From the IMG/VR virus record IMGVR_UViG_3300025083_000028, positions 1-58,899 of that record: a stretch of 58,899 nucleotides of DNA; one strand, 5' to 3'. How positions within the stretch are numbered: the stretch's first letter is position 1; each line of letters starts with the position of its first letter. Shown in pieces: positions 28,430 through 41,065 of the stretch. The position numbers and the translations under genes were made by a program. Source of the stretch: a virus. Under the pieces are notes generated by a model. The model saw only the letters and a list, made by a program, of their open reading frames with translations. It was not told where the DNA came from and searched no databases.

Positions 28430-31400
28430 ATGGAAGATTTTATTTACGAGCTTGATGGCAAAGAAATTGTTGTTAAAGCTGAACATAAAGAAAATTTTGA
28501 AAGTTTATTTCCTAAAGCGGTTTTAAAACAGCAAGCAGAAAATTTTCAACCGGGTGTCCCGAATGTGGATGCGAGCGAGACGCCTGTAAAAAGAAGAATA
28601 CAACAATCAGGCCAATCTTCGGGCTTCGCATCAGGAACTACTTCTTCGGAATCACAAGAAGATAAATATTCTTTTGAAAAACCTTTTCAGGGCACATTTT
28701 TTGGTGATGTAGTATTAGATTATTTTGGCGATATAGGCAGAGCCTTTGAATCGGGTGCCGCTGCTGGTATGAGTGTAGATGAGGCCTTTGATATATACAG
28801 AAAAGGAGCTAGTATTTCAGATGAAGATTTAGATTTTTTTATTGAAGCAGACAAAAGAATACAAGCCAAAGGAACTTCTGACGAAATGTTGGAATATCAA
28901 AATATATATAAGGAAGAGGGCGGAGGAATACTAGGGTTTTTAATTGCTAACGCAAAAACAAGAGGGCAAGTATTACCACAAATCATAGCCAGTTCTGTAG
29001 CAACGATGGCAACATCATTAGAATCTGGAGAGGTTAGGGGAGCCGCATTAACTGGGGCTGGAACAGGAGCATTAATAGGTAGTAGTGCAACTCCTATTGG
29101 AACTGTCACGGGAGCTGTTGGAGGTGGAGTTGCTGGTTTAGTGGGCGCAATGGAAACAAGTTTGACTTTGTCTGAATTATTAAAAGAAGAAATTGGTAGT
29201 GATACATTAACAAAAGAAAACATAAGAGCCGTACTTGAAGACTCTGAAAAGATGAAAAGTATAAAAAATAAATCTCTTGGGAGGGGGATTGCTATTGGTG
29301 CTGTTGAGGGAATAACATTAGGTCTTTCTAGGGGTTTAGCAACCAGCTTGAGTAAAGGGGGTATGAAGGCTAGTGGGGTGACAGCAAGAGTCGCTGGGCT
29401 AGAAGCTGTTGGCGGATCTACCGGTGAAATAGCAGGTAGAATAGCCGCAGATCAAGAAATGGACACTTCTGATATTTTATTCGAAGGTGTTGCTGAGCTA
29501 AAAGGGGTAGTTAATGTTACTGACATTATAAATAAAAGCCAATATAAATTAAATGGCGAAATAAGAAAAAAGAAAGACATTCAGGAATTTATATCAACAG
29601 CCACACCAGAACAAATCGCTGGGGCAAATATAGATATTAAAAATGATAATAATTTTAAGGCTGTTATAGATGAAAAACAAAAAGACGTTTATTTACAATC
29701 AACAATTCCAGCTGAAGTCACTAATCCTAATGATAGATTTTCTCTTTTCAAATTAGAAAAAGAAAGAATTAAGTACAAAGGAAACGACACCAAAACAGCT
29801 CAGAACATGCTTTCTGATATTAATTCTGAAATAAAAGAAATAACTGATAAATACCGACGAAGAGGAAGAAAAAGTAAAGAAATTGCCGCTCAAATAATAG
29901 AAAATGAAAAAATACAAAAAGCAACCCAAGATAGAACAGTAGCAGGAACAATTGAATTTGCACAAACGCAAGGAGAAAAAATAGGTTTAAAAACTATTGT
30001 TGCAGAAGATAATAAATCTTTTGAGGCAGAGCTTAAAAAAGATGGTATAAAATTATCTAAAGAGGATAAAGCAAGCATTGATAGAATAGGCGGTTATATT
30101 CAAGGTAATAAAATATACATAAACAAAGACGCCGCCGGTAAAACAGGACAAATTAATGTGGGAGGGCATGAATTATTGCATGGTATTATAGAGAGCGCTA
30201 ATATAAAAGACATGGGCGCACTGGTTAATGATTTTAAAAAACAGTTAAGCCAAGACCAAGTAAGTATATTAGAGGCCCAAATGGTGGCTAGGGGATACGG
30301 TGTTGATTCTAAAACATACTCTAAAGAGTATTTGACTAATTTTTCAGACGCAATTGTTGATGGAACTATAAAGTTCAATGAAAATTTATTTACAAAAATA
30401 GGCGAAGGAATTGTTAATTTATTGAAAATATTTGGTTATGAAAATATAAATTTTAAGAATGGCAAGGGAGTTTATAATTTTATGAAAGAATATTCTAAAA
30501 ATATAAAAGAAGGTAAATTATCTGAGTCCGTTATAAAACAAGCGGGGACCTCTATAAATGTGGAGGGTGCAATGTCTGTGTCACCAGAATCTGCGGCAAA
30601 AGTAAATCAAATCTACAAAGATAATCCCCCCTCAATAGCTGCTCAAAAAATTGTGTTTGATTCGGAGGTTAATTATAGAGGAATGGCTGAAAAATATTTA
30701 AATGATTTTATTGCTAATCCAAATTTATCTGATGAACAAAAAGGAATAATGCAAAGAAATAGAGAGGATATAGCTGCTATGATGTTATATGACAGAATAC
30801 CATCTCAGAGAAAAGGATCAAAATTAAGAAATGTTATTGGTTTAGTTGAAGGATTTGAAGAAGTAAAAAATCAATATGGTAAAGATGGTGTTGCAGGATA
30901 TATTAACAAATTTTTTAGAAGGAGAGGTTTAGAGGCTATAAATTATTATTTAAAAGATTCAGGGCTAAAAAATATTGAAACCGAAGAGGGGACTGTAAGA
31001 AAAGACGTTGCTGTAAAAACAGCGTCTACACAAAATATTGAAGTTTCAGAAAAACAAAATAAAAGTTTTGAAAGAAAAATTACGCTAAGCAAATTAGCAA
31101 AAGATATATTATCTGATCCAACAGAAACTTTAACAAAAGTCACAAATATAATCACAAAAGAATTAAAACTTCTTGCGAGAAATCGAGTAATAAATATTGA
31201 AAAAATTGAAAAAGTAATTCAAAAAGAAATAAGAAAAGTTGTGGTTGACGGGATAGGCAAAATTAAATCTGAACAAATACCTGGAACCGCTAAAAGAAGA
31301 GCCGTAATACCAACATTGTATTCAACAATTATTGAAACTAAATTTAATGAAATAGCAGACGCTATGTCATTAATTGATATAAAGAAAAGATATAATAAAT

Positions 31401-34400
31401 TATTTAAAGTAACAGATACTGGTAAAAGAGAAAAAACAGCTGAAGGTAATCCAATATTCACAATAGCTAAACCAATTAAAGCTGAGTTTATAAAATATTT
31501 TACTGATACTAATATAGCTATGACTACATTAGTTGAAAGACAAAAAATGCTAGGCGAAATAATATCAAAAGCTATAACATCAAAAATATTAAAAGAGTAT
31601 AATTCAAATGATAGTTTAATTGAGCTTGCTCAAATAGCTAATTTAAATCCTGCGGAAGGTGCAAAAGCAGTGACAGAATTACAATTAGCAAATGAAATTA
31701 GTGATGTAGCTAAACAATTAGATACATACGAAGGTGAAAAAATGCTGCAAGATACTAGGCTGTTTTCAATTGCGCCTACAGCAGCAGAAAAAGTAAATAT
31801 TACTAAAGCCTATGCAGCATTGCAAAAAGCAAAGGGAGATATAACTAATGACAACTATCTAAAAGTCATAGAAAATTTACCTGTAGTCGTGCAAGAATTT
31901 GTTGAAGATTTGTACGAAAAAAGAGGCGAAATTAAAGGCGATAGAATAGGTGGCCCTATATACGAATCAATATTAGCAGATTTAGTAAAAAAAGAAAGTA
32001 ATATAGAGGTCACTGCTGAAGGCGGCTTTACATCTGGTCCTGATTTACAATTAAAAGTTCGAGGTGCAATAATACCTATTGAAATAAAAGCTGATCCTAC
32101 AGCTGATTTTGGTAGTATATCTGCTTCTTATAATACAGAAAGCGGAAAATTTACTTTTGTAAAAGATAAAGAAACAATTGAATTAAAAGATTTGCCTGAC
32201 GGCGAAATACTTAAAGAAGTTTTTAGAACTACTTTGCCTTTTTTAGAGAAAAAAATAGAAATTGCTAATAAAGCATTAGGAATTGAAATAAAAAACTTTC
32301 CTGAAGATTTTAATAAAGCAATGACAGATAAATTTGGTTCAGTTTCATCAAAAAATACAGCAGCAGAAAACAAAAAAGTTAAAGATGCTAAAAAAGCATG
32401 GGTTAAAAAAAATTGGCAATTTAATGATGAGAAAAATAATCCATTAGGTTTACCTGGCCCAAAAAATCAAACCAACGCAGCTGTTATAAAATTTTATAAT
32501 GATAAAAAGGTATATTATATACAAATAGGAGGTAAAGGTTTATATAGATTAGGCGAAGATAAATATAATTTAGGGGCTAGCGAATTAAAGGCTACATTTA
32601 GATACCCTGTAAGATTAAAGCCTAACGGCAGAATGGGATTTAATTGGCAAGTAGCACCTAAAATAGAAGCGCCTGCTAAAGTTCCAAATTCTGATATAAG
32701 TTTAGAAAATACTAAAGATATAAAAACTATAGAGCAAAATATAAATAAAAATAAAGGATTTTTAAGTAGAGCCGCAAGAATTGATAAGACGGGTGAAACA
32801 ACGTTGGATAAAGCCTTTAACGATATACTTGAAGAAAAAACAGGTATTGCATCGGATAAAGTATATAGTAAAGAAAGAGCCAGAATAGCGGGTAAGAAAA
32901 ATAAAAAGATGAGTTTTTATATTTCTCCTGGTGCTGAAGATTTTACAGGCTTAATGTATAAATTATTATCTAAAGGTAAATTGGGAGATGCCCAAATGGC
33001 TTGGATTAAAAAACATATATTAAACCCCTACTCTAAAGCAATGGATGAAATATCTATTGAAAGGGTTGCTTTATTTGAAAAATTTAGAGCGCTAAAAAAA
33101 GAAATATCAGCAGTCCCTAAAAAAATAAAGAAAAAACTACCAGGAACAGACGATACATATGAAACAGCAGTTAGAGTTTATATGTGGGACAAGCAAGGTA
33201 TGGACATACCAGGTTTAACTAAAAAAGAAATAAAAGAATTAGTCAGTGCAGTAAAAAAAGACAAAGAATTAAAAGCATTTGGAGACCAGCTTATAACTAT
33301 ATTTCCTGGTGGTTATCCACAAGCTCAAAATTTTTGGTTATCAGGTAATATAACTACCGACTTTTTAAATGGGTTAAATACAACAAGAAGAGCCGAAATA
33401 TTATCTAAATGGCAATCAAATGTAGATGAAATATTTTCTGAAAAGAATTTAAATAAATTAGAATCACAGTTTGGAGAAAACTACAAAATTGCTTTAAAAA
33501 ATATATTGGGAAGAATGAAAACAGGCAGCAATAGGCCTATAACTGATAATAAAGCTTTAAATGATTTTTATGATTGGATTAATGGCGCAGTTGGTGTTGT
33601 GATGTTTTTAAATATGCGTTCCGCTATACTGCAAACTATATCCATGGTTAACTATATAAACTGGAATGACAATAATATATTAGCGGCCGGAAAAGCTTTT
33701 GCAAATCAAAAACAATATTGGGCCGATTTTAAAACTATTTGGAATTCTGATTTTTTAAAAAATAGACGGGGGCAATTAAAATTAAACGTGAGTGAATCAG
33801 AAATAGCAGATATGGCTGATAAAGGAGGTGCAAGGGGCGTTGTAAATTATTTATTAAAAATAGGATATACCCCCACAAGGGTAGCGGATAGTTTTGCAAT
33901 TGCTGCCGGTGGTGCATCTATGTTCAGAAATCGAACTAAAAGCTATATGAAAAATGGTTTTTCTCAAGAAGAAGCAGAATTACAAGCTTTTAGAGATTTT
34001 CAAGAATTAACAGAAGAAGCACAACAATCCTCCAGACCTGATAGAATATCAAAACAACAAGCTAGCACTACAGGCAGATTATTTTTAGCATGGGCTAATA
34101 CACCTATGCAATACGGTCGATTAATAAAAAGATCCACACAAGATTTAATAGCAGGCAGAGGGGATAGAAACACTAATATATCTAAAATTGTACATTATAG
34201 TTTTTTACAAAACATAATATTTAATTTTATGCAAAAAGGAGCTTTTGCTTTAGCTTTTGCACAAGAAGAAGATGATGAAAAAAGAAGAAATGTTTATAGT
34301 GGAGTTGGCGAAAGTATGGCAGATTCAATAGTAAAAGGAGCCGGAGTTCAAGGGACGCTGCTCATGGCGGCTAAATCACTTGTAAAAGATATTGTAAAAG

Positions 34401-34813
34401 AAAGTAAAAAAAGCAGACCTGATTATGAGGGTAGTTTATGGAAAATATTAGAAGCATTCCCTCCAATAGATGCTAAAATGGACAGGGCTAAAGATGTTGT
34501 ATATGCTTTTCAATTTGAAAAAGAAGAAATGATAGAAGAGGGATTAGCAATAGGCAGCCCAGGTCTAGAGGCTATAGCAAGTGGAATATCTTTTGCTAGC
34601 AATGTGCCAGTTGATAGAGCTTTAAGAAAAATAGAAAATATTAAAGCCGCTTTAGATGATCGAACGGACACTTGGGCAAGAATAGCATTATTATTGGGTT
34701 GGGGAAGTTGGTCGTTGGGATTAACAGAAGATGAAACTGCAATTGTAAAAAATAGCTCAAGAAAAATACAAAAAAGAAAAATACAAAAAAGGAAAATACA
34801 AAAAAGAAATTAA
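28430..34813 (+). CDS. Giant ejection protein with HExxH and PD-(D/E)XK-like motifs (2127 aa)
   Basis: Largest gene. Around residues 205-245 a Gly-zipper segment (GAGTGALIGSSATPIGTVTG) could cross a membrane. A metallopeptidase-like region has VGGHELLHGII (H580-E581-x-x-H584) and a later EYLTNFSDAIVDG. A nuclease-like region has G-P-D-L (D1205) followed by IPIEIKAD (E1218, K1220), the PD-(D/E)XK spacing. The C-terminal third (about 1600-2080), with FLNMRSAILQTISMVNYINW and ASTTGRLFLAWANTPMQYGR, is the conserved tail of giant phage ejection proteins. It likely enters the host with the DNA (T7 gp16 analogue). Ends in a short Lys/Arg repeat. Confidence 0.75.
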   Translation: MEDFIYELDGKEIVVKAEHKENFESLFPKAVLKQQAENFQPGVPNVDASETPVKRRIQQSGQSSGFASGTTSSESQEDKYSFEKPFQGTFFGDVVLDYFGDIGRAFESGAAAGMSVDEAFDIYRKGASISDEDLDFFIEADKRIQAKGTSDEMLEYQNIYKEEGGGILGFLIANAKTRGQVLPQIIASSVATMATSLESGEVRGAALTGAGTGALIGSSATPIGTVTGAVGGGVAGLVGAMETSLTLSELLKEEIGSDTLTKENIRAVLEDSEKMKSIKNKSLGRGIAIGAVEGITLGLSRGLATSLSKGGMKASGVTARVAGLEAVGGSTGEIAGRIAADQEMDTSDILFEGVAELKGVVNVTDIINKSQYKLNGEIRKKKDIQEFISTATPEQIAGANIDIKNDNNFKAVIDEKQKDVYLQSTIPAEVTNPNDRFSLFKLEKERIKYKGNDTKTAQNMLSDINSEIKEITDKYRRRGRKSKEIAAQIIENEKIQKATQDRTVAGTIEFAQTQGEKIGLKTIVAEDNKSFEAELKKDGIKLSKEDKASIDRIGGYIQGNKIYINKDAAGKTGQINVGGHELLHGIIESANIKDMGALVNDFKKQLSQDQVSILEAQMVARGYGVDSKTYSKEYLTNFSDAIVDGTIKFNENLFTKIGEGIVNLLKIFGYENINFKNGKGVYNFMKEYSKNIKEGKLSESVIKQAGTSINVEGAMSVSPESAAKVNQIYKDNPPSIAAQKIVFDSEVNYRGMAEKYLNDFIANPNLSDEQKGIMQRNREDIAAMMLYDRIPSQRKGSKLRNVIGLVEGFEEVKNQYGKDGVAGYINKFFRRRGLEAINYYLKDSGLKNIETEEGTVRKDVAVKTASTQNIEVSEKQNKSFERKITLSKLAKDILSDPTETLTKVTNIITKELKLLARNRVINIEKIEKVIQKEIRKVVVDGIGKIKSEQIPGTAKRRAVIPTLYSTIIETKFNEIADAMSLIDIKKRYNKLFKVTDTGKREKTAEGNPIFTIAKPIKAEFIKYFTDTNIAMTTLVERQKMLGEIISKAITSKILKEYNSNDSLIELAQIANLNPAEGAKAVTELQLANEISDVAKQLDTYEGEKMLQDTRLFSIAPTAAEKVNITKAYAALQKAKGDITNDNYLKVIENLPVVVQEFVEDLYEKRGEIKGDRIGGPIYESILADLVKKESNIEVTAEGGFTSGPDLQLKVRGAIIPIEIKADPTADFGSISASYNTESGKFTFVKDKETIELKDLPDGEILKEVFRTTLPFLEKKIEIANKALGIEIKNFPEDFNKAMTDKFGSVSSKNTAAENKKVKDAKKAWVKKNWQFNDEKNNPLGLPGPKNQTNAAVIKFYNDKKVYYIQIGGKGLYRLGEDKYNLGASELKATFRYPVRLKPNGRMGFNWQVAPKIEAPAKVPNSDISLENTKDIKTIEQNINKNKGFLSRAARIDKTGETTLDKAFNDILEEKTGIASDKVYSKERARIAGKKNKKMSFYISPGAEDFTGLMYKLLSKGKLGDAQMAWIKKHILNPYSKAMDEISIERVALFEKFRALKKEISAVPKKIKKKLPGTDDTYETAVRVYMWDKQGMDIPGLTKKEIKELVSAVKKDKELKAFGDQLITIFPGGYPQAQNFWLSGNITTDFLNGLNTTRRAEILSKWQSNVDEIFSEKNLNKLESQFGENYKIALKNILGRMKTGSNRPITDNKALNDFYDWINGAVGVVMFLNMRSAILQTISMVNYINWNDNNILAAGKAFANQKQYWADFKTIWNSDFLKNRRGQLKLNVSESEIADMADKGGARGVVNYLLKIGYTPTRVADSFAIAAGGASMFRNRTKSYMKNGFSQEEAELQAFRDFQELTEEAQQSSRPDRISKQQASTTGRLFLAWANTPMQYGRLIKRSTQDLIAGRGDRNTNISKIVHYSFLQNIIFNFMQKGAFALAFAQEEDDEKRRNVYSGVGESMADSIVKGAGVQGTLLMAAKSLVKDIVKESKKSRPDYEGSLWKILEAFPPIDAKMDRAKDVVYAFQFEKEEMIEEGLAIGSPGLEAIASGISFASNVPVDRALRKIENIKAALDDRTDTWARIALLLGWGSWSLGLTEDETAIVKNSSRKIQKRKIQKRKIQKRN
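34760..34807 (+). repeat. 15-base tandem repeat at the end of the giant gene
   Basis: Three exact-to-near copies of a 15-base unit (AGRAAAATACAAAAA) plus one codon, encoding R-K-I-Q-K three times and making a basic C-terminal tail. Units start at 34760, 34775 and 34790; one base differs (AGG for AGA). Likely slippage-prone. Confidence 0.85.
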
Positions 34814-34932: not shown

Positions 34933-35051
34933 TGGCTAAAGAATTTAAAGCGCATAAAATGTATTGCAAAGGCAAACCATTTATGGCAAAAACATACAAA
35001 GAGCACTTAACTTTAAAGAAAAAAGGCTGTGGCCATAAAAAACCAAAATAA
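34932..35051 (+). CDS. Very small basic Cys/His protein (39 aa)
   Basis: MAKEFKAHKMYCKGKPFMAK, then KEHLTLKKKGCGHKKPK. It overlaps its neighbours on both sides through TAATG junctions, which is strong evidence for translation. Two Cys and three His on a Lys-rich background could bind a metal or nucleic acid. Same style as the flanking basic proteins. No named family recognised. Confidence 0.7.
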   Translation: MAKEFKAHKMYCKGKPFMAKTYKEHLTLKKKGCGHKKPK

Positions 35052-35350
35052 TGGCAGTAAGAAAAACTAAAAAAGGCGCTGCGTTAAAGCGCTGGTTTAA
35101 AGAGAAGTGGGTTGACGTTAGAACAGGGAAAGCTTGTGGCCGTAAGAAAGGCGATGGCAGAGGTGTGCCTTACTGTAGACCTAGCAAAGTGCCTTACTGT
35201 AGACCTAGCAAAAGAGTATCTAGCAAGACACCAAAAACATCGAGCGAAATGTCTTCATCTGAAAAAGCAAAAAAAATCAGAGAAAAGAAAAGCTTAGGAC
35301 AACCAAAAGGAAAACCAAGAAGGGTCAAATCAGTTAAAAGAAGAAAATAA
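35051..35350 (+). CDS. Basic DUF5872-like protein (99 aa)
   Basis: The motif LKRWFKEKWVDVRTGKACGR, then GRGVPYCRPSKRVSSKTPK-type sequence, matches the DUF5872 pattern (W-F-K-E-K-W-V-D-V ... C-G-R ... C-R-P-S-K-R-V-S-x-K-T-P), a small basic protein of unknown function shared by phages and large eukaryotic viruses. Here the V-P-Y-C-R-P-S-K block is duplicated. The C-terminal third is Lys/Arg-rich. Its place at the end of the virion operon suggests a packaged nucleic-acid-binding protein, which is inference. Confidence 0.75.
   Translation: MAVRKTKKGAALKRWFKEKWVDVRTGKACGRKKGDGRGVPYCRPSKVPYCRPSKRVSSKTPKTSSEMSSSEKAKKIREKKSLGQPKGKPRRVKSVKRRK
35164..35211 (+). repeat. 24-base tandem duplication in the DUF5872-like gene
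   Basis: The 24-base unit beginning GTGCCTTACTGTAGACC occurs twice, exactly and in frame (35164-35187 and 35188-35211), encoding VPYCRPSK twice. Perfect identity suggests a recent duplication. Confidence 0.9.
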
Positions 35351-35351
35351 A

Positions 35352-35516
35352 ATGGATACTCAAGATTTAAAAGTGTTAGCATTGAACACATCGGCGTTTA
35401 CAGTTTCAATGACTTCGGTTGAAGATATACTTAAAATAATATTATTATTAGTTTCAATAGGTTTTACTGTTCAAAGATGGTATGAAATACATAAAAGGAA
35501 TAAAGATAATAAGTAG
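35352..35516 (+). CDS. Holin-like small membrane protein (54 aa)
   Basis: One transmembrane segment (about residues 27-45: ILKIILLLVSIGFTVQRWYE) after a short polar N-terminus (MDTQDLKVLALNTSAFTVSM) and before a basic tail (HKRNKDNK). The order L-N-x-S-A-F-x-x-S-x-T-x-V-E-D-x-L-K-I followed by a single TM and Lys/Arg end is one I recognise from putative holins of marine phages. First gene of the lysis island; an endopeptidase lies downstream. It overlaps the next gene by 35 bases in another frame. Confidence 0.62.
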   Translation: MDTQDLKVLALNTSAFTVSMTSVEDILKIILLLVSIGFTVQRWYEIHKRNKDNK

Positions 35517-35946
35517 TTTATTATTCTGTATTATAATATCTGCACAAGATATTAAAATAAACGATATAAAAAATTCAATTCAAACTGGCCCTTTGGTTGG
35601 CAATAGGAACGTTGGGTTTGGGTTAAAAAATATATTAGAAGAAGTGGTTCAGGATCAAGATTATAACTTAAATGATAAAAGTGAAGATGTTTTAGATGTT
35701 GAGCTAATTTATTTTGATGTAAAACGTACTCAGTCAAATATTGCGTTGTATAGCAAATCATCGAGTCAAACCGAAATAATTGCTATTGCTAAATATAAAA
35801 AGAAAAAAGTAAAAGTAAAAGGCACATCAAAAGATATAACTACATCTTTAATTTTATTAAATGAACAAGGTAAGTTTACACAAAACAGTGTTAGTGTTGC
35901 ATTAAAAAAATTATCTGAAAACATTATTAAGAAATTAAAACTATGA
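35482..35946 (+). CDS. Exported protein, possibly CsgG/LptE-like fold (154 aa)
   Basis: Signal peptide MKYIKGIKIISSLLFCIIISAQ, then an alternating strand/helix domain: an early helix (VGFGLKNILEEVVQD), strands around DVLDVELIYFDVKRTQSN, and a terminal helix ALKKLSENIIKKLKL. This layout resembles small CsgG- or LptE-related periplasmic domains but lacks a lipobox. Overlaps the holin-like gene by 35 bases and the next gene by 4 (ATGA). It belongs to the same exported-protein cluster as the CsgG-like gene at 38161. Confidence 0.55.
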   Translation: MKYIKGIKIISSLLFCIIISAQDIKINDIKNSIQTGPLVGNRNVGFGLKNILEEVVQDQDYNLNDKSEDVLDVELIYFDVKRTQSNIALYSKSSSQTEIIAIAKYKKKKVKVKGTSKDITTSLILLNEQGKFTQNSVSVALKKLSENIIKKLKL

Positions 35947-37568
35947 AAAAATTATTGTTTTTATTATTACCATTACTCTGCTTAGCACAAGATTTAAAAC
36001 TTGATCACAGTTATACAAACGCCGAAGATTTTGCGGTTGGTGATACTATAACAATAAAGTTTAATACAATACAAGTTACAGAAGATGTAGATCCTAACTT
36101 GTATATATTTGATTATGAGTACAATAACAAGCTGCTACAAAAAATTGCTCATAGATTTAAAGTAACCGATAACTCAGCTAACACGAATGCACAAACATCG
36201 TTGACACATTGGGACGGTTATAAGTATAAAGTTTTAAGTACTTATGATGAAGATAATCTTTCAGCCCAGTATTTACACGGTTGGTTTAATAGAACGCAAG
36301 TGGAAGGAGATACCAATTCATACCCCGCTGATAACGATTGGTCAGTTGAAAGAATAACAATTCAAGACGGTGTGGGCGTAACATATAATAATACTTTAAT
36401 TGAAGTTGATTTTAAAATTAAAGATAAGATTAATACTAACTACAGCAATTATAATAATGTAACACATCTTAACTGGATGAGGGCTGAAGATAATTCAACA
36501 TCAACAAAATACGATGTTGACGCGATGCAACAAAAAATAACATTATCTGACGTTGAAGGTGGTGATGCAGGTAGTGTTACTATAAATCTTAAAACAGAAA
36601 ACGACAAACCGACGCATTACAAATACGATATATTAAGTAATAATAATAGCGTAGCGAGTGGTAATTTTGATGCTAACTCTCAAGCCATTGTAACTGGTTT
36701 AGAAAACAATATTAAATACGATATTAACATCACTGTTGATAATGAATTGTCCTCTGATTGGCTAGACGATGTAGTTACCGTAACCGATGTCTTCCTAGTA
36801 TTTAAAGAAGCCATTGGTGCAGGCACTAGCCCTGGGGGATCCGCTAATACGTTTACACACTCTATACAGTATTTATTAGGCGAAGTTAATAACAGTGGAA
36901 ATGTAGACTTTGATGATTCTTATGTTATGCTTAGTCACATAATGGACGAAAATGTTAGTGAATATTTTACCAGCTCTGCTAACGGTGCTAAAGATATTTG
37001 GGGGGAAAAAACACAATACGGATATGCTACAGATGATTATTACTTTGGACAAAAAAAACATTTTACACCTACTGATTCTAATAAGGTTTTTGATTTTGGT
37101 CACGGACTTATTGGAGACGTAGACTTCTCACATTCATTTGAACCTATAGTTGAAGACGATAACGAGGGCGTTGTAAGAATGCCTAGTGTGCAGGGTAAAA
37201 TTGAAAATTTAGATTTAGATATTTCAACAAGTTTAGTTAACGATAAAGTGGAATTATTAGTTGAGCTCGAAAAAGATTACTTAGCGGGTATGCAATTTGT
37301 AATTCAGTTTGACGATACCATATTAGAATTTGAGGAGGTTCAATTCGATACAGGCAATCTATTAACTAATTTTGCAACAGAACGCGATAATAAATTATAT
37401 TTTGGGAGCATCAGTGTGGAAAACCAAGAAAGCATTAAGGTTGGTAAACCTTATAAAATTATATTTAATACAAAACAAACGGTAACGAATGCGTCAGGTT
37501 TAATTTATTTTAAAACAACAGATGCTGTTACAAGTGATGGAACTAAAGTAATTTTAAAAATACAATAA
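35943..37568 (+). CDS. Exported cohesin- and dockerin-like domain protein (541 aa)
   Basis: Signal peptide MKKLLFLLLPLLCLAQ. Residues ~15-150 form a cohesin-like strand domain (TNAEDFAVGDTITIKF); ~205-285 looks like a fibronectin-III-type domain. Near residue 315 GEVNNSGNVDFDDSYVMLSH matches a dockerin calcium loop (G-x-V-N-x-x-G-x-V-x-x-x-D), with a weaker second loop GDVDFSHSFEP near 397. Residues ~430-541 are cohesin-like (VELLVELEKDYLAGMQFVIQ then FDD). Having both partners in one polypeptide suggests self-assembly or surface anchoring. Overlaps the previous gene by ATGA. Confidence 0.65.
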   Translation: MKKLLFLLLPLLCLAQDLKLDHSYTNAEDFAVGDTITIKFNTIQVTEDVDPNLYIFDYEYNNKLLQKIAHRFKVTDNSANTNAQTSLTHWDGYKYKVLSTYDEDNLSAQYLHGWFNRTQVEGDTNSYPADNDWSVERITIQDGVGVTYNNTLIEVDFKIKDKINTNYSNYNNVTHLNWMRAEDNSTSTKYDVDAMQQKITLSDVEGGDAGSVTINLKTENDKPTHYKYDILSNNNSVASGNFDANSQAIVTGLENNIKYDINITVDNELSSDWLDDVVTVTDVFLVFKEAIGAGTSPGGSANTFTHSIQYLLGEVNNSGNVDFDDSYVMLSHIMDENVSEYFTSSANGAKDIWGEKTQYGYATDDYYFGQKKHFTPTDSNKVFDFGHGLIGDVDFSHSFEPIVEDDNEGVVRMPSVQGKIENLDLDISTSLVNDKVELLVELEKDYLAGMQFVIQFDDTILEFEEVQFDTGNLLTNFATERDNKLYFGSISVENQESIKVGKPYKIIFNTKQTVTNASGLIYFKTTDAVTSDGTKVILKIQ

Positions 37569-37927
37569 TGAAAAAACTTTTTATACTATTTTTATTTATA
37601 AGTTGTACTACAGAGGTATACAATGAAAGACCAATACAAGAAGTGCCCGAATCTTTATTCATGCCTCAAGCTGTTGGTTTAAAACTTGAAAGTTACATAG
37701 TGCAAGATAAAGTAAGAATAAATACTAAACTGCCTTCTGATGGTGATTATAGAATTAAAATATTAGATTTTACAAATAGTATAATTAATCAAGAGATAAT
37801 AAAAGGTGAAGAAGGTGATAATATATTGAATATATATGTTAATTCATTGCCAGTTAGCTCATATACCGTGGAGCTGTATACTAAAAACAATCAATTCATA
37901 GGCAGACAAACCTTTTCAATGAAGTAA
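37568..37927 (+). CDS. Lipoprotein of the lysis/export island (119 aa)
   Basis: Lipoprotein signal MKKLFILFLFISC with lipobox Cys13, followed by a small strand-rich domain (VRINTKLPSDGDYRIKILDF; LPVSSYTVELYTKNNQFIGR) with the look of a C-terminal sorting or Ig-like domain. Start overlaps the preceding stop (TAATG). Expected at the inner leaflet of the outer membrane. It could assist the CsgG-like protein or act as an outer-membrane spanin; the sequence does not decide. Confidence 0.6.
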   Translation: MKKLFILFLFISCTTEVYNERPIQEVPESLFMPQAVGLKLESYIVQDKVRINTKLPSDGDYRIKILDFTNSIINQEIIKGEEGDNILNIYVNSLPVSSYTVELYTKNNQFIGRQTFSMK

Positions 37928-37928
37928 T

Positions 37929-38159
37929 ATGAAAGAATTAAAAAATCAAATAATAGCTACAGTAGGTTTAATTATAACTGCAGCTGGTGGAATACTCATA
38001 GCCAACATGGAGGCTATATTTAGTCCTGAAGATGATTCACCACCACCAACAATGGAACAAACAATAACAATACCACCGAGTGTTGTTAAAGATACTTTGG
38101 TTATAACTAAAACAGTTATACAAAAACCGAAGAAAAAAGAAAGAGAGATAGATTGGTAA
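37929..38159 (+). CDS. Small single-TM protein with periplasmic Pro-rich tail (76 aa)
   Basis: An N-terminal transmembrane segment (IIATVGLIITAAGGILIANM, residues 8-27) is followed by acidic then Pro-rich sequence (PEDDSPPPTMEQTITIPPSV) and a basic end (KPKKKEREIDW). The topology suits an inner-membrane anchored periplasmic protein such as an i-spanin or an adaptor for the neighbouring exported proteins. One base separates both its start and its stop from adjacent genes. Confidence 0.55.
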   Translation: MKELKNQIIATVGLIITAAGGILIANMEAIFSPEDDSPPPTMEQTITIPPSVVKDTLVITKTVIQKPKKKEREIDW

Positions 38160-38160
38160 C

Positions 38161-38880
38161 ATGAAAAAATTTATACTATGTGCGATATTTGTATCGGCTG
38201 TGGCTTCTGCTCATAGCCAAGTAATTGGAAAAACAACAACCGAAGATTATGTCGGTAGCTTTGAATCAAAAGAATCTATATGGAGTGTACCGGAATACAA
38301 TGGCGACCCTGTATCTGTAGCTTTGCTTAACATTGGTGTTACTGAAGAAATATTAAATCAGTACCCTGAATTAGGTGATTATAGGGTTGGATTAGGTTTA
38401 ACTAATATAACTGTAGCATTCTTAGATGAAACGTTTCGTTTTGAGTTTGTAGAAACAAGGGATGAAATAAAAGACAGAATGATTAAACAATTCAAAGCAA
38501 GTGAAAAAGGCTTTACGGCTAACGTAATAAATCCTATAGGTAAAATAGTTTTAGCTAAATATTTTTGTTATATAGAAGTATATGACTTTAGTATATCAGA
38601 AGATGAAACCATTAATCTAAAAGACGGTATTAAAAATAAATTAGTTACAAGATTAGGTTTACAAGTTAAGCTTGTTGATTCTGAAACTGGTTTATACATG
38701 ACCGGATCTGGTTTAGGTAAAGCCACAACAACAAGGGAATTAACCTTGTTAAATAATGAAAATTTAGAGGATATTAAATTTAACCAATCATCAATTGGCA
38801 CATCGACTAAAAAAGCTTTAGAAACTGCGGTTGCTAAGGTTGTTAAACGAATGATAAGAAAAAAGATATTTGATCATTAA
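38161..38880 (+). CDS. CsgG-like curli-secretion-type protein (239 aa)
   Basis: Signal peptide MKKFILCAIFVSAVASAHSQ, without a lipobox Cys at the cleavage site. The core follows the CsgG order: SVALLNIGVTEE (first strand), RFEFVETRDEIKDRM (helix after 'F-x-x-V-E-R' in CsgG), then LGLQVKLVDSETGLYMTGSG and GKATTTRE, corresponding to the CsgG strand pair V-x-L-R-x-V-(D/N)-x-x-T-G-E-I, and a final helix ALETAVAKVVKRMI. CsgG forms a nonameric outer-membrane pore for curli subunits. A pore or secretion role in phage exit is inferred. Confidence 0.65.
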   Translation: MKKFILCAIFVSAVASAHSQVIGKTTTEDYVGSFESKESIWSVPEYNGDPVSVALLNIGVTEEILNQYPELGDYRVGLGLTNITVAFLDETFRFEFVETRDEIKDRMIKQFKASEKGFTANVINPIGKIVLAKYFCYIEVYDFSISEDETINLKDGIKNKLVTRLGLQVKLVDSETGLYMTGSGLGKATTTRELTLLNNENLEDIKFNQSSIGTSTKKALETAVAKVVKRMIRKKIFDH

Positions 38881-40211
38881 TGAAAAAAATAATAATATTA
38901 TTATTATTTTCCTCAAGTATATATTCTCAAACATTAGTACAAGCCTTTGCGGATAGATGTACCGGAGAGATTAAAAGAGTTTCAATTCAAATGGAAGGTT
39001 ACACAACAGTATCCTTTTATAATAGAACAAAAACTTTTACTGCTAATGATTTTTACAGTGGTGCATTAAGAACTTGGATGGAACAAACGTATGCCTGGTG
39101 GTATGCTTTGTCAGCGTGTTCTACAGCCCAAACTACCCAAACAACAACACAAACATCTACATCAAATACCAACAATAGTTCTGATTCTAGTGGTTCAACC
39201 GATACGGGATCAACTGATAATTCAGGAAGTGGCTCTGATTCAGGTGGAGATAGCGGCGATAGTGGTGGTGATTCAGATGGAGGGGAAGACAGCGATGGCG
39301 GTAGCGACTCTGATGATGGAGGGGGAGACAGCGATGATGGGGGTGATGATGGTGGTGATTCTGATGATAGTGATAATGAAGAAGAACAAAAAGAAGAAGA
39401 ACAAGAGGAAGAGAAAAAGGAAGAGAAAGAAGAGGAAAAAGAAAAGGAGGAAGAAGAAAAAGAGGAAGAAGAAAAAGAAAAGAAAAAGAAAAATACAAAT
39501 CCTATAATTATATCAGCTAATCTAATGCGTATGTCAGGGTTAGATGGCGCGGCAAATCAAGTTATAGGTATTGGCTTTGCACAATCATCTATGAATGGCG
39601 AGTTTAATTACTCTGCTAATATGATGATATGGGATAACTTAAAACAATTTAGTTTAAGTGGATCAAGAGGGCATACATTTCATAGATACGATAAGAAAGT
39701 GCCTATGGTAATTAAAGAAGATGGCAAAGAATACGTGTTTGGATATTTTTACGACAAAGGAAGTATAGCCAATGTACAAACATTATCCGCTGGATTAATG
39801 TATATGTATGGCGTTTACAATATGTCCTTTGGTATAAGTAACGTGTATATTGGCCAAAAAGAAAATAAATGGAAAGGATTTGTTGGGGGCGTGTCCGCTT
39901 CTAATAATATATTATACAGTCAAGGCGAGTGGAATGTAATGCCAGCATTTGTAGCATTCGGCACTAAGCCTTACAATTTTAAAAGATTTACTGTATCACC
40001 TATGTTAGCTACCGCATTAACACCAGTGAGTTACAGTACATTAGATAATGGATTTGTTTTTAATGAGCACGCTTTATTCGTGGGTGGCGCTAACTTTGAT
40101 TTTTCTATAACTAAAACCTTTAGAATGAATTTAGGTTTTAATGTAGCTAAAAGCACAGACTCATTTCCATTAACATATTCAATAACAATAGGCGGTAAAT
40201 TTAAATTATAA
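38880..40211 (+). CDS. Outer-membrane beta-barrel protein with acidic repeat linker (443 aa)
   Basis: Signal peptide MKKIIILLLFSSSIYSQ, then a conserved-looking N-domain (LVQAFADRCTGEIKRVSIQM; TWMEQTYAWWYALSACS). Residues ~85-165 are Ser/Asp/Gly repeats (GGDSGDSGGDSDGG), turning into Glu/Lys repeats to ~205. The last ~235 residues are amphipathic strands ending in an aromatic-poor but barrel-type ITIGGKFKL, typical of outer-membrane barrels. Start overlaps the CsgG-like stop (TAATGA). The linker could bind calcium or span the cell-wall space. Role in lysis or export inferred. Confidence 0.65.
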   Translation: MKKIIILLLFSSSIYSQTLVQAFADRCTGEIKRVSIQMEGYTTVSFYNRTKTFTANDFYSGALRTWMEQTYAWWYALSACSTAQTTQTTTQTSTSNTNNSSDSSGSTDTGSTDNSGSGSDSGGDSGDSGGDSDGGEDSDGGSDSDDGGGDSDDGGDDGGDSDDSDNEEEQKEEEQEEEKKEEKEEEKEKEEEEKEEEEKEKKKKNTNPIIISANLMRMSGLDGAANQVIGIGFAQSSMNGEFNYSANMMIWDNLKQFSLSGSRGHTFHRYDKKVPMVIKEDGKEYVFGYFYDKGSIANVQTLSAGLMYMYGVYNMSFGISNVYIGQKENKWKGFVGGVSASNNILYSQGEWNVMPAFVAFGTKPYNFKRFTVSPMLATALTPVSYSTLDNGFVFNEHALFVGGANFDFSITKTFRMNLGFNVAKSTDSFPLTYSITIGGKFKL

Positions 40212-40214
40212 AAA

Positions 40215-40670
40215 ATGATTAGCGAACACATTAGTAAAAAAGAAGCAACGTTTAGTGCAACAGCAATGAGAACAGGTATAGATAATATACCTGGTGAATA
40301 TGAATTACAGAATATGGAATTGATTGCTGAAAAAGTATTTGAGCCATTAAGAAAACACGTTAATGGACCTATTAAAATTAACTCGTTCTATCGCAGTAAA
40401 GAATTAAATCGAGCGATCGGAGGGAGCTCAAAATCGCAGCATTGCCAAGGCAGAGCGATAGATTTAGACGACACATATGGTTATATGTCTAATGCAGATA
40501 TGTATAAATATATAAAAGATAACTTAGATTACGATCAGATGATTTGGGAATTTGGAACCGATGAAAACCCGGATTGGGTACATGTAAGCTACGTAGACGC
40601 TGACTCAAATAGAAAAAGATGTTTGAAAGCATATAAAGAAGAAGGTAAAACTAAATATAAAGTAATATGA
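40215..40670 (+). CDS. Peptidase M15-family endolysin (151 aa)
   Basis: Zinc D,D-/L,D-type peptidase fold. Ligands appear in order: H76 in SSKSQHCQGRAIDLD, D83 in the same segment, and H123 in DWVHVSY, matching the M15 pattern S-x-H-x(6)-D ... W-x-H-V. An upstream INSFYRSKELNRAIGG is the usual substrate-groove segment. No signal peptide, so it would need the holin-like protein to reach the wall. Cuts peptidoglycan cross-links. It overlaps the next lipoprotein gene by ATGA, as endolysin-spanin pairs do. Confidence 0.85.
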   Translation: MISEHISKKEATFSATAMRTGIDNIPGEYELQNMELIAEKVFEPLRKHVNGPIKINSFYRSKELNRAIGGSSKSQHCQGRAIDLDDTYGYMSNADMYKYIKDNLDYDQMIWEFGTDENPDWVHVSYVDADSNRKRCLKAYKEEGKTKYKVI

Positions 40671-41038
40671 TAAAATTAAATAAACTTATTTTTTTAGTGC
40701 TATTAATAATTGGATGTTCAGTACAGAAAAAACCTGAAATTAAAATTACTCACGTATTAGCTGTAACTCATACAGGTGATACATTAACAATACCTATTGA
40801 TGTTATAAGACCTGTTAATTATAGAATAATTAATTATGGTGGGTATAACTATAGCTGGCCAAGACCTTATTATTATGATTATCATAGACAATATAATTAT
40901 AATCAAGGTTCGTCTTATAGATCAAATAATAATAATAACAATAATAGTAATGATAAAAACATCAATAAAATTGTACCAAGAGAAGATCCTGGGGATGGTA
41001 AACCATCTGCTGATGTTTTGATGAAAGGAAAGAAATAA
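40667..41038 (+). CDS. Asn/Tyr-rich lipoprotein, spanin-like (123 aa)
   Basis: Lipoprotein signal MIKLNKLIFLVLLIIGC (lipobox I-I-G-C, Cys17). A short strand region (HVLAVTHTGDTLTIPIDVIR) is followed by a Tyr/Trp/Pro-rich stretch (YNYSWPRPYYYDYHRQY) and an Asn run. Last gene before the convergent terminator and overlapping the endolysin gene. The position suggests an outer-membrane lysis (o-spanin-like) protein, but the sequence is not diagnostic. Confidence 0.55.
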   Translation: MIKLNKLIFLVLLIIGCSVQKKPEIKITHVLAVTHTGDTLTIPIDVIRPVNYRIINYGGYNYSWPRPYYYDYHRQYNYNQGSSYRSNNNNNNNSNDKNINKIVPREDPGDGKPSADVLMKGKK

Positions 41039-41042
41039 AAAA

Positions 41043-41065
41043 AAGGGGCCTTAAAAAAGCCCCTT
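41043..41065. terminator. Bidirectional terminator between convergent operons
   Basis: AAGGGGC pairs with GCCCCTT around a 9-base loop. The plus strand has an A-run on the left, so minus-strand transcripts (from the nucleotide-reductase operon) end with hairpin plus U-run; the plus-strand lysis operon meets the same hairpin 4 bases after its last stop, followed by TAATTATTT. The 54 bases up to the next gene show nothing else. Confidence 0.85.

Follow-up and report, generated by a model that had tools for sequence, protein, structure and literature searches.

Gene island and conserved core

The DNA analysed here, referred to as the window, is a 58.9 kb IMG/VR virus record that carries a gene island at positions 35352-41038. 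The large terminase subunit, tail and other virion proteins are encoded upstream of it. The island holds nine plus-strand open reading frames (ORFs), named g1 (start 35352) to g9 (start 40667) in their order along the strand, with junctions ranging from an overlap of 35 nucleotides (nt) to a gap of 3 nt. Signal peptides or lipoboxes were found on the products starting at 35482, 35943, 37568, 38161, 38880 and 40667, and on none of the holin-like, single-transmembrane (TM) and M15 products. Both the gene layout and the distribution of export signals agree with an original prediction for this DNA, which had described a lysis island with a CsgG-like secretion pore, a cohesin/dockerin protein and an outer-membrane barrel.

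Six of the genes, g2-g7, are conserved as a core. The first, g2 (35482-35946, 154 amino acids, aa), encodes an exported periplasmic protein resembling YajG/Lipoprotein_16 (PF03923 E 2e-4, below the cut-off). It is followed by g3 (35943-37568, 541 aa), an exported scaffold protein that has modules resembling cohesin and loops resembling dockerin, and whose homologues match PF00963. g4 (37568-37927, 119 aa) encodes a lipoprotein, as revealed by its lipobox, with what appears to be a split-off sorting-domain fold of the type IX secretion system (T9SS), type A. By alignment, g5 (37929-38159, 76 aa) has one TM helix, a Pro/Lys-rich tail and a C-terminal Trp. g6 (38161-38880, 239 aa) is an exported protein without a lipid anchor, placed in the CsgG fold by structural and not by sequence matching. 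The barrel protein g7 (38880-40211) consists of a signal peptide, an N domain with two Cys (38928-39110), a helix, an acidic linker and the barrel itself (39492-40208).

Two profile scans of IMG/VR gave 366 and 430 confirmed g6 relatives, on contigs of up to 434 kb. For analysis, 162 IMG/VR loci with the core were fetched, plus the genus Immutovirus and one contig of a bacterial metagenome-assembled genome (MAG). The loci formed two clades: clade 1, with 84 loci (76 dereplicated), which includes the window, and clade 2, with 80 loci. Gene order in related phages, a comparison suggested alongside the original prediction, was exactly g2-g3-g4-g5-g6-g7 in 53/76 dereplicated clade-1 loci, and most of the remaining ones were cut by contig ends or had duplications. 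g2 was present in 74 clade-1 loci. All 80 clade-2 loci had g3, g5 and g6, with g7 in 78 and g2 in 67 of them. An M15 neighbour was found in only 13 of the 84 clade-1 loci and g1 in 15, and therefore the core comprises g2-g7 and not all nine genes; a fixed lysis cassette of core plus M15 enzyme was dropped for the same reason. Judged by sequence conservation, the core is a unit of about six genes, inseparable across many phages, and its recurrence in the 162 fetched loci is far beyond chance.

A bacterial origin of the core was not traceable, as the 84,980 bacterial and archaeal genomes searched gave a single match, on a contig of 254 kb from a Bacteroidetes MAG (locus L085, CAIWBA010000291.1). 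This contig has further phage-type neighbours in common with the viral loci, and possibly represents a large phage that was binned together with a Bacteroidetes genome. Immutovirus was the sole match among 50,697 phage records. Its representative, the cultured Flavobacterium phage immuto (NC_055915, 160 kb), encodes the core as gp013-gp019, all annotated as hypothetical except for cohesin and lectin labels. In the open-access literature, we found neither a description of the cassette nor any cohesin/dockerin/lectin cassettes in phages.

Scaffold protein and exchange of its sorting domain

The window copy of g3 has no Pfam match of its own. Its homologues in L027, L085 and Immutovirus (gp015) match Cohesin above the cut-off, and in the window protein dockerin-like calcium loops are visible at residues 313-327 (36879-36923) and 391-398 (37113-37136), with a cohesin region at about 37263-37433. 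The cohesin/dockerin label of the original prediction is supported by the relatives and by these loops.

Distant g3 proteins and Immutovirus gp015 end in a T9SS type A sorting domain (Por_Secre_tail, here C-terminal domain or CTD), detected above curated cut-offs. In the clade of the window, g3 lacks this domain and the lipoprotein gene g4 stands next to it. Window g4 matched the sorting-domain family PF18962 with E 0.019, below the cut-off; profile-profile comparison with the CTD by hhalign gave P 2.6e-6 (probability score 88.6), and 34 g4 proteins matched a profile of the fused CTDs (best E 6.5e-11). On these profile comparisons, the g4 domain is homologous to the T9SS sorting domain. The two forms replaced each other strictly. 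Among the 157 loci scored, 86 had a fused CTD without g4, 71 had a g3 without CTD plus g4, and none had both or neither.

The lipobox Cys was invariant in g4 (30/30). The Bacteroidota surface lipoprotein signal is optimally C-X-K-(D/E)2-X (PMC5080379). At least two acidic residues between positions +3 and +6 were seen in 35/55 distinct g4 N termini, for example CAKDEFYI and CMKDEEMF, versus 0/14 of the other predicted lipoproteins at the same loci.

Clade-2 loci often encode an exported C-type-lectin/dockerin protein in the position following g7 (28 large proteins, one family), and Immutovirus gp013 matches Lectin_C with E 3e-15. Immutovirus differs from the window in having g2 after the barrel gene, a scaffold split over gp014 and gp015, a lectin, and an endolysin gene 8 kb away. 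Phage-encoded T9SS cargo has been reported for Cryophage (PMC7468147). Its proteins share with the cassette the T9SS type A sorting domains; however, they are encoded by isolated, variable cargo genes, whereas here the cassette is fixed and the sorting domain is either fused to the cohesin protein or present in lipoprotein form instead.

CsgG-fold protein, outer-membrane barrel and proposed inner-membrane tether

The product of 38161-38880 had been predicted to be CsgG-like, with a comparison to the CsgG family by hidden Markov models as a check. Neither g6 nor about 25 of its relatives matched the CsgG family PF03783, and g6 matched no other Pfam entry either. A CsgG model scan of the window and Immutovirus genomes returned nothing, while the control genomes were positive. 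A PDB profile search with g6 found no sequence match, and hhalign against CsgG gave a weak, colinear, full-length alignment (P 0.034). The AlphaFold2 model of g6 was poor, with a mean predicted local distance difference test score (pLDDT) of 56. Foldseek comparison of this model with solved structures ranked CsgG first (E 2.6e-5, probability 1.00). VIA-align gave Z 9.3 over 164 residues, with the fold match spanning residues 31-239, and Z 8.7 over 188 residues for membrane-bound CsgG. PelC, LptE, GNA1162 and Cj1090c followed in the list, all members of the fold class without a pore of their own. With a misfolded model, one would not expect a single family to come first so consistently, and we therefore assign the CsgG fold to g6 with moderate confidence. 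The prediction held for the fold only; a family profile match was not found, and a pore formed by this protein is not supported.

The mature N terminus of g6 is an invariant Gln20 and not a lipidated Cys; a lipobox-like match was present in only 15 of the 131 distinct g6 sequences, and a conserved Cys is absent. The hairpin at the position of the first CsgG membrane segment (TM1) carries near-invariant Glu147, Asp148 and Glu149 in its middle, and the equivalent of TM2 is ~9 residues shorter than that of CsgG. Given the missing lipid anchor and the charged would-be membrane hairpin, g6 itself is probably not a CsgG pore. Two conserved motifs, YPELxDxRVGLG (125/131 distinct sequences) and EVYDFSxSxDE (122/131), suggest a specific function. 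Among ten island proteins, no Pfam match to CsgA/B, CsgE or CsgF was seen. For g2, hhalign against CsgG found nothing and a PDB profile search gave chance matches only. A C-terminal motif in common between g2 and g6 (P 0.001, probability 21%) was too little to call them paralogues.

The g7 barrel (residues 210-443) was modelled by AlphaFold2 with a pLDDT of about 90, in line with the predicted outer-membrane barrel. Its best structural match was the NalP translocator (Z 24.3, root mean square deviation 3.0 A, 230 aligned residues), with other autotransporters also matching, and FapF, the Pseudomonas functional amyloid exporter, was found with Foldseek E 6.5e-7 and Z 19.4. The likeness to NalP and FapF is one of fold, at about 8-12% identity. 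Judged from the model, g7 is an outer-membrane barrel of the secretion type (autotransporter/FapF). FapF and the type Va autotransporters NalP and EspP have, like g7, a C-terminal barrel and a preceding helix able to occupy the pore. In contrast to them, g7 has a small N domain with two Cys (in 128/129 distinct sequences) and an acidic linker of ~100 residues between helix and barrel, and there is no Fap operon. A BFVD search with g7 returned generic viral outer-membrane barrels, and its PHROG matches were not used, as they lay within the low-complexity linker.

The closest two-part analogue of g6 and g7 is the PelB-PelC exopolysaccharide exporter, in which a periplasmic, CsgG-fold-like PelC ring is combined with a separate outer-membrane barrel (PMC12141448). 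The g6 model matched PelC with Foldseek E 2e-4. PelC, however, is a lipoprotein and exports polysaccharide, whereas no polysaccharide genes were seen here, and a g6 ring is a proposal made by analogy.

Curli cassettes of pelagiphages and of the methylophage Melnitz resemble the present one in that a CsgG-fold exported protein of a marine phage belongs to a multi-gene exported cassette (PMC7029224, PMC9599517, PMC9004378). There, CsgG is recognisable by sequence and accompanied by CsgF, in some cases also by CsgA/B-like genes. Here, by contrast, we found no CsgG sequence match and no lipid anchor, and instead a separate barrel, a cohesin/dockerin scaffold, a tether and a T9SS-type domain. Proposals for the role of such cassettes are cell aggregation or lysis, with sibling capture suggested for the pelagiphage genes (PMC7029224, PMC9599517) and action in lysis for the Melnitz gene (PMC9004378). 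The original prediction had mentioned curli-like genes near lysis genes in flavobacterial phages; such genes are on record, in this pelagiphage and methylophage work rather than in work on flavophages. CsgG-like genes also turned up in other phage records. Five Brevundimonas jumbo phages of about 350 kb (ON529851, ON529852, ON529853, ON529855, ON529860) encode a protein 26% identical to CsgG, annotated in one of them as a curli production assembly protein. The 1.5 kb record OR851715.1, which bears the label Salmonella phage S.Kent, contains a csgG of ordinary appearance and probably represents host DNA.

In g5, a single TM helix is followed by an extended Pro/Lys/Glu-rich tail, and the C-terminal Trp was conserved in 131/131 distinct sequences. 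The charges adjoining the helix suggest that the tail is periplasmic, in which case it could reach the outer-membrane complex. This topology is that of an inner-membrane spanin; an evident coiled coil is absent and no spanin PHROG was matched. Immutovirus-like and GH19 loci encode a further small membrane protein beside g6 (cluster c44, 55-61 aa; for example L029:7828-8004, L025:7822-7998 and L028:401-568), and like g5 it ends in Trp.

Lysis-gene neighbourhood and proposed function

In the window, the core is flanked by g1 and g8. The g1 product (35352-35516, 54 aa) has one TM segment and a weak match to the holin phrog_1350 (E 0.12), and the predicted holin-like label is kept tentatively. It belongs to the lysis side and not to the core. 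The predicted M15 endopeptidase, g8 (40215-40670), was confirmed as an endolysin without signal peptide (PF08291 60.6 bits, cut-off 23.2; phrog_894 E 5e-30) and is an exchangeable, non-core gene.

Of the dereplicated clade-1 loci with sufficient flanking sequence, 46/55 encoded a peptidoglycan hydrolase inside the cassette or at most 3 kb away from it; in clade 2, 27/33 loci had one at a distance of up to 4 kb. Small holin-like membrane proteins were found in the cassette or within 1.5 kb in 53/62 and 73/80 loci. All of these are raw counts from related loci that are not independent. The clade-1 hydrolases come from unrelated families, namely M15, amidase, GH19, a phrog_3000/33083 enzyme and a DUF5675-like protein, which we take to be a peptidoglycan hydrolase too. 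That unrelated enzymes are exchanged beside a constant core argues for a real association with lysis genes; the link is positional but robust. The main exception is the Immutovirus-type loci. The full set in Immutovirus, with its distant endolysin, indicates that the cassette is independent of adjoining lysis genes.

Based on these results, we favour a reading to which we give about even confidence: a phage-encoded envelope cassette, expressed together with the lysis genes, puts a cohesin/dockerin scaffold on the exterior of the infected cell. Outward-pointing content and a position beside lysis genes are best reconciled by a late surface scaffold. Surface location, assembly, timing and purpose are what we infer here, from the observed conservation, domains, export signals, CTD/g4 swap and neighbourhood. 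g3 would be the displayed protein, held at the surface through its fused sorting domain by use of the host T9SS or, as in the window, through g4, a sorting domain turned surface lipoprotein. g7 and g6 would form an outer-membrane complex, in which g6 is a periplasmic CsgG-fold element that surrounds g7 or lies beneath it, perhaps as a ring, by analogy with PelC beneath PelB. g5 may tether this complex to the inner membrane, making contact through its C-terminal Trp, and in distant relatives a C-type lectin would attach to the scaffold by docking. The cassette would probably serve to modify the infected cell's surface shortly before lysis, either for aggregation with new hosts or as a coating against rival phages or progeny re-adsorption. 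The original prediction had offered a surface structure exported before lysis as one of two options, and this option fits the content better, considering the T9SS or lipoprotein form at every complete scaffold locus, the cohesin/dockerin modules and the lectin in relatives.

Several points weigh against a late surface scaffold. The surface location of the cassette proteins is a prediction from sequence. The surface signal of window g4 is weak (CTTEVYNE, with one acidic residue at +3 to +6), the window has no Lectin_C match, and the g6 model is of poor quality. If clade-2 g3 is exported by the host T9SS, g6 and g7 are left without an explained task, and the persistent holin-like and endolysin neighbours exceed what surface display needs. 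A wider version is a tentative possibility: a widespread, phage-specific machine that spans the envelope from an inner-membrane tether to a surface scaffold of cohesin, dockerin and lectin, acts late and co-ordinated with lysis, and works like a small viral cellulosome by which the dying cell captures hosts or glycans, with two interchangeable routes to the surface.

The main rival is a lysis machine, in which g5, g6/g7 and the lipoproteins assemble into a complex across the envelope; once holin and endolysin have done their part, this complex would disrupt the outer membrane, replacing a spanin or working beside it. It draws on the nearby hydrolases of unrelated families and holin-like proteins in both clades, on the close-packed run in which the window's holin-like and M15 genes flank the core, on the spanin-like topology of g5 and on the lysis role proposed for the Melnitz CsgG (PMC9004378). 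Cohesin, dockerin, lectin and T9SS sorting domains, however, have no known part in lysis, g5 lacks an evident coiled coil, and the Immutovirus endolysin lies far off. In some relatives, candidate coiled-coil spanin-like proteins (clusters c24 and c30) are encoded beside the cassette, and cultured flavophages are reported to lyse by holin/endolysin with or without spanins (PMC8776804). We regard a lysis machine as rather unlikely, though worth serious attention. The other option of the original prediction, a pore or scaffold breaching the outer membrane as a substitute for a spanin, keeps its genomic link to lysis, but no membrane disruption is evident from the cassette content.

A surface complex could also mask receptors from other phages or from the phage's own progeny, as superinfection exclusion or as a coating for progeny release. 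Surface targeting, the lectin and cohesin modules and nearby exported nucleases would fit; early expression would be expected, rather than expression with the lysis genes, and we consider this improbable. A curli-type system (type VIII secretion), with g6 as a nine-fold CsgG pore secreting an amyloid-like subunit, gains from the fold match over residues 31-239, membrane-bound form included, and from the marine-phage precedents (PMC7029224, PMC9599517). Against it stand the lack of a CsgG sequence match, the conserved Gln in place of a lipidated Cys, the charged TM1 and shortened TM2 equivalents, the curli partners not seen by Pfam among the island proteins, and a separate barrel gene that always adjoins g6, which together make it very improbable. 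Least probable of all, we think, are virion components that happen to bear export signals. The island does come after the late structural block (28430-34813 and upstream); however, five of the core proteins carry signal peptides or lipoboxes, one of them is an outer-membrane barrel, and no structural PHROG matched among the core proteins.

Other features were noted around the cassette. Exported NUC1-type nucleases are encoded near it in 27 clade-1 and 10 clade-2 loci (e.g. L012:12910-13488, L024:10237-10845 and L037:8202-8780), and a phage nuclease of this sort, secreted or periplasmic, could contribute to superinfection exclusion. In one subclade, a lipase-like protein (cluster c57; L071, L072, L074, L075, L077, L078), recognised by eye from a GHSLGAAMA motif, follows the barrel gene beside amidase/GH19 genes. 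Directly 5' of the island in the window lies a 2127-residue ORF (28430-34813), probably a large internal virion protein. A plus-strand gene for a DUF5872-like basic protein (35051-35350; PF19197 E 2.4e-13) ends 1 nt 5' of the island; seven loci have it, and with so few relatives carrying one it is probably not core. The last island gene, g9 (40667-41038), encodes a small, poorly conserved, non-core lipoprotein of 123 aa with one relative only. A strong, terminator-like hairpin (41043-41065) separates the island from a convergent minus-strand gene. A promoter scan gave 40 candidates versus 32.1 (standard deviation 5.7) in shuffled sequence, which is no excess.

Hundreds of viruses of Bacteroidota-type bacteria have this exported set beside their lysis genes, and it looks like a kit for mounting a sticky scaffold on the cell surface. 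The strict swap between fused CTD and lipoprotein amounts to a natural experiment on protein retention at the Bacteroidota surface, and Immutovirus, growing on Flavobacterium sp. LMO8, offers a culturable system with the whole cassette. Should rupture of the outer membrane be its role instead, the cassette would represent a lysis apparatus of a new kind. If the favoured reading is true, many aquatic Bacteroidota phages, with 430 relatives in IMG/VR, remodel the surface of their hosts with a scaffold of their own just before lysis, which would have a bearing on aggregation, host capture and carbon export.

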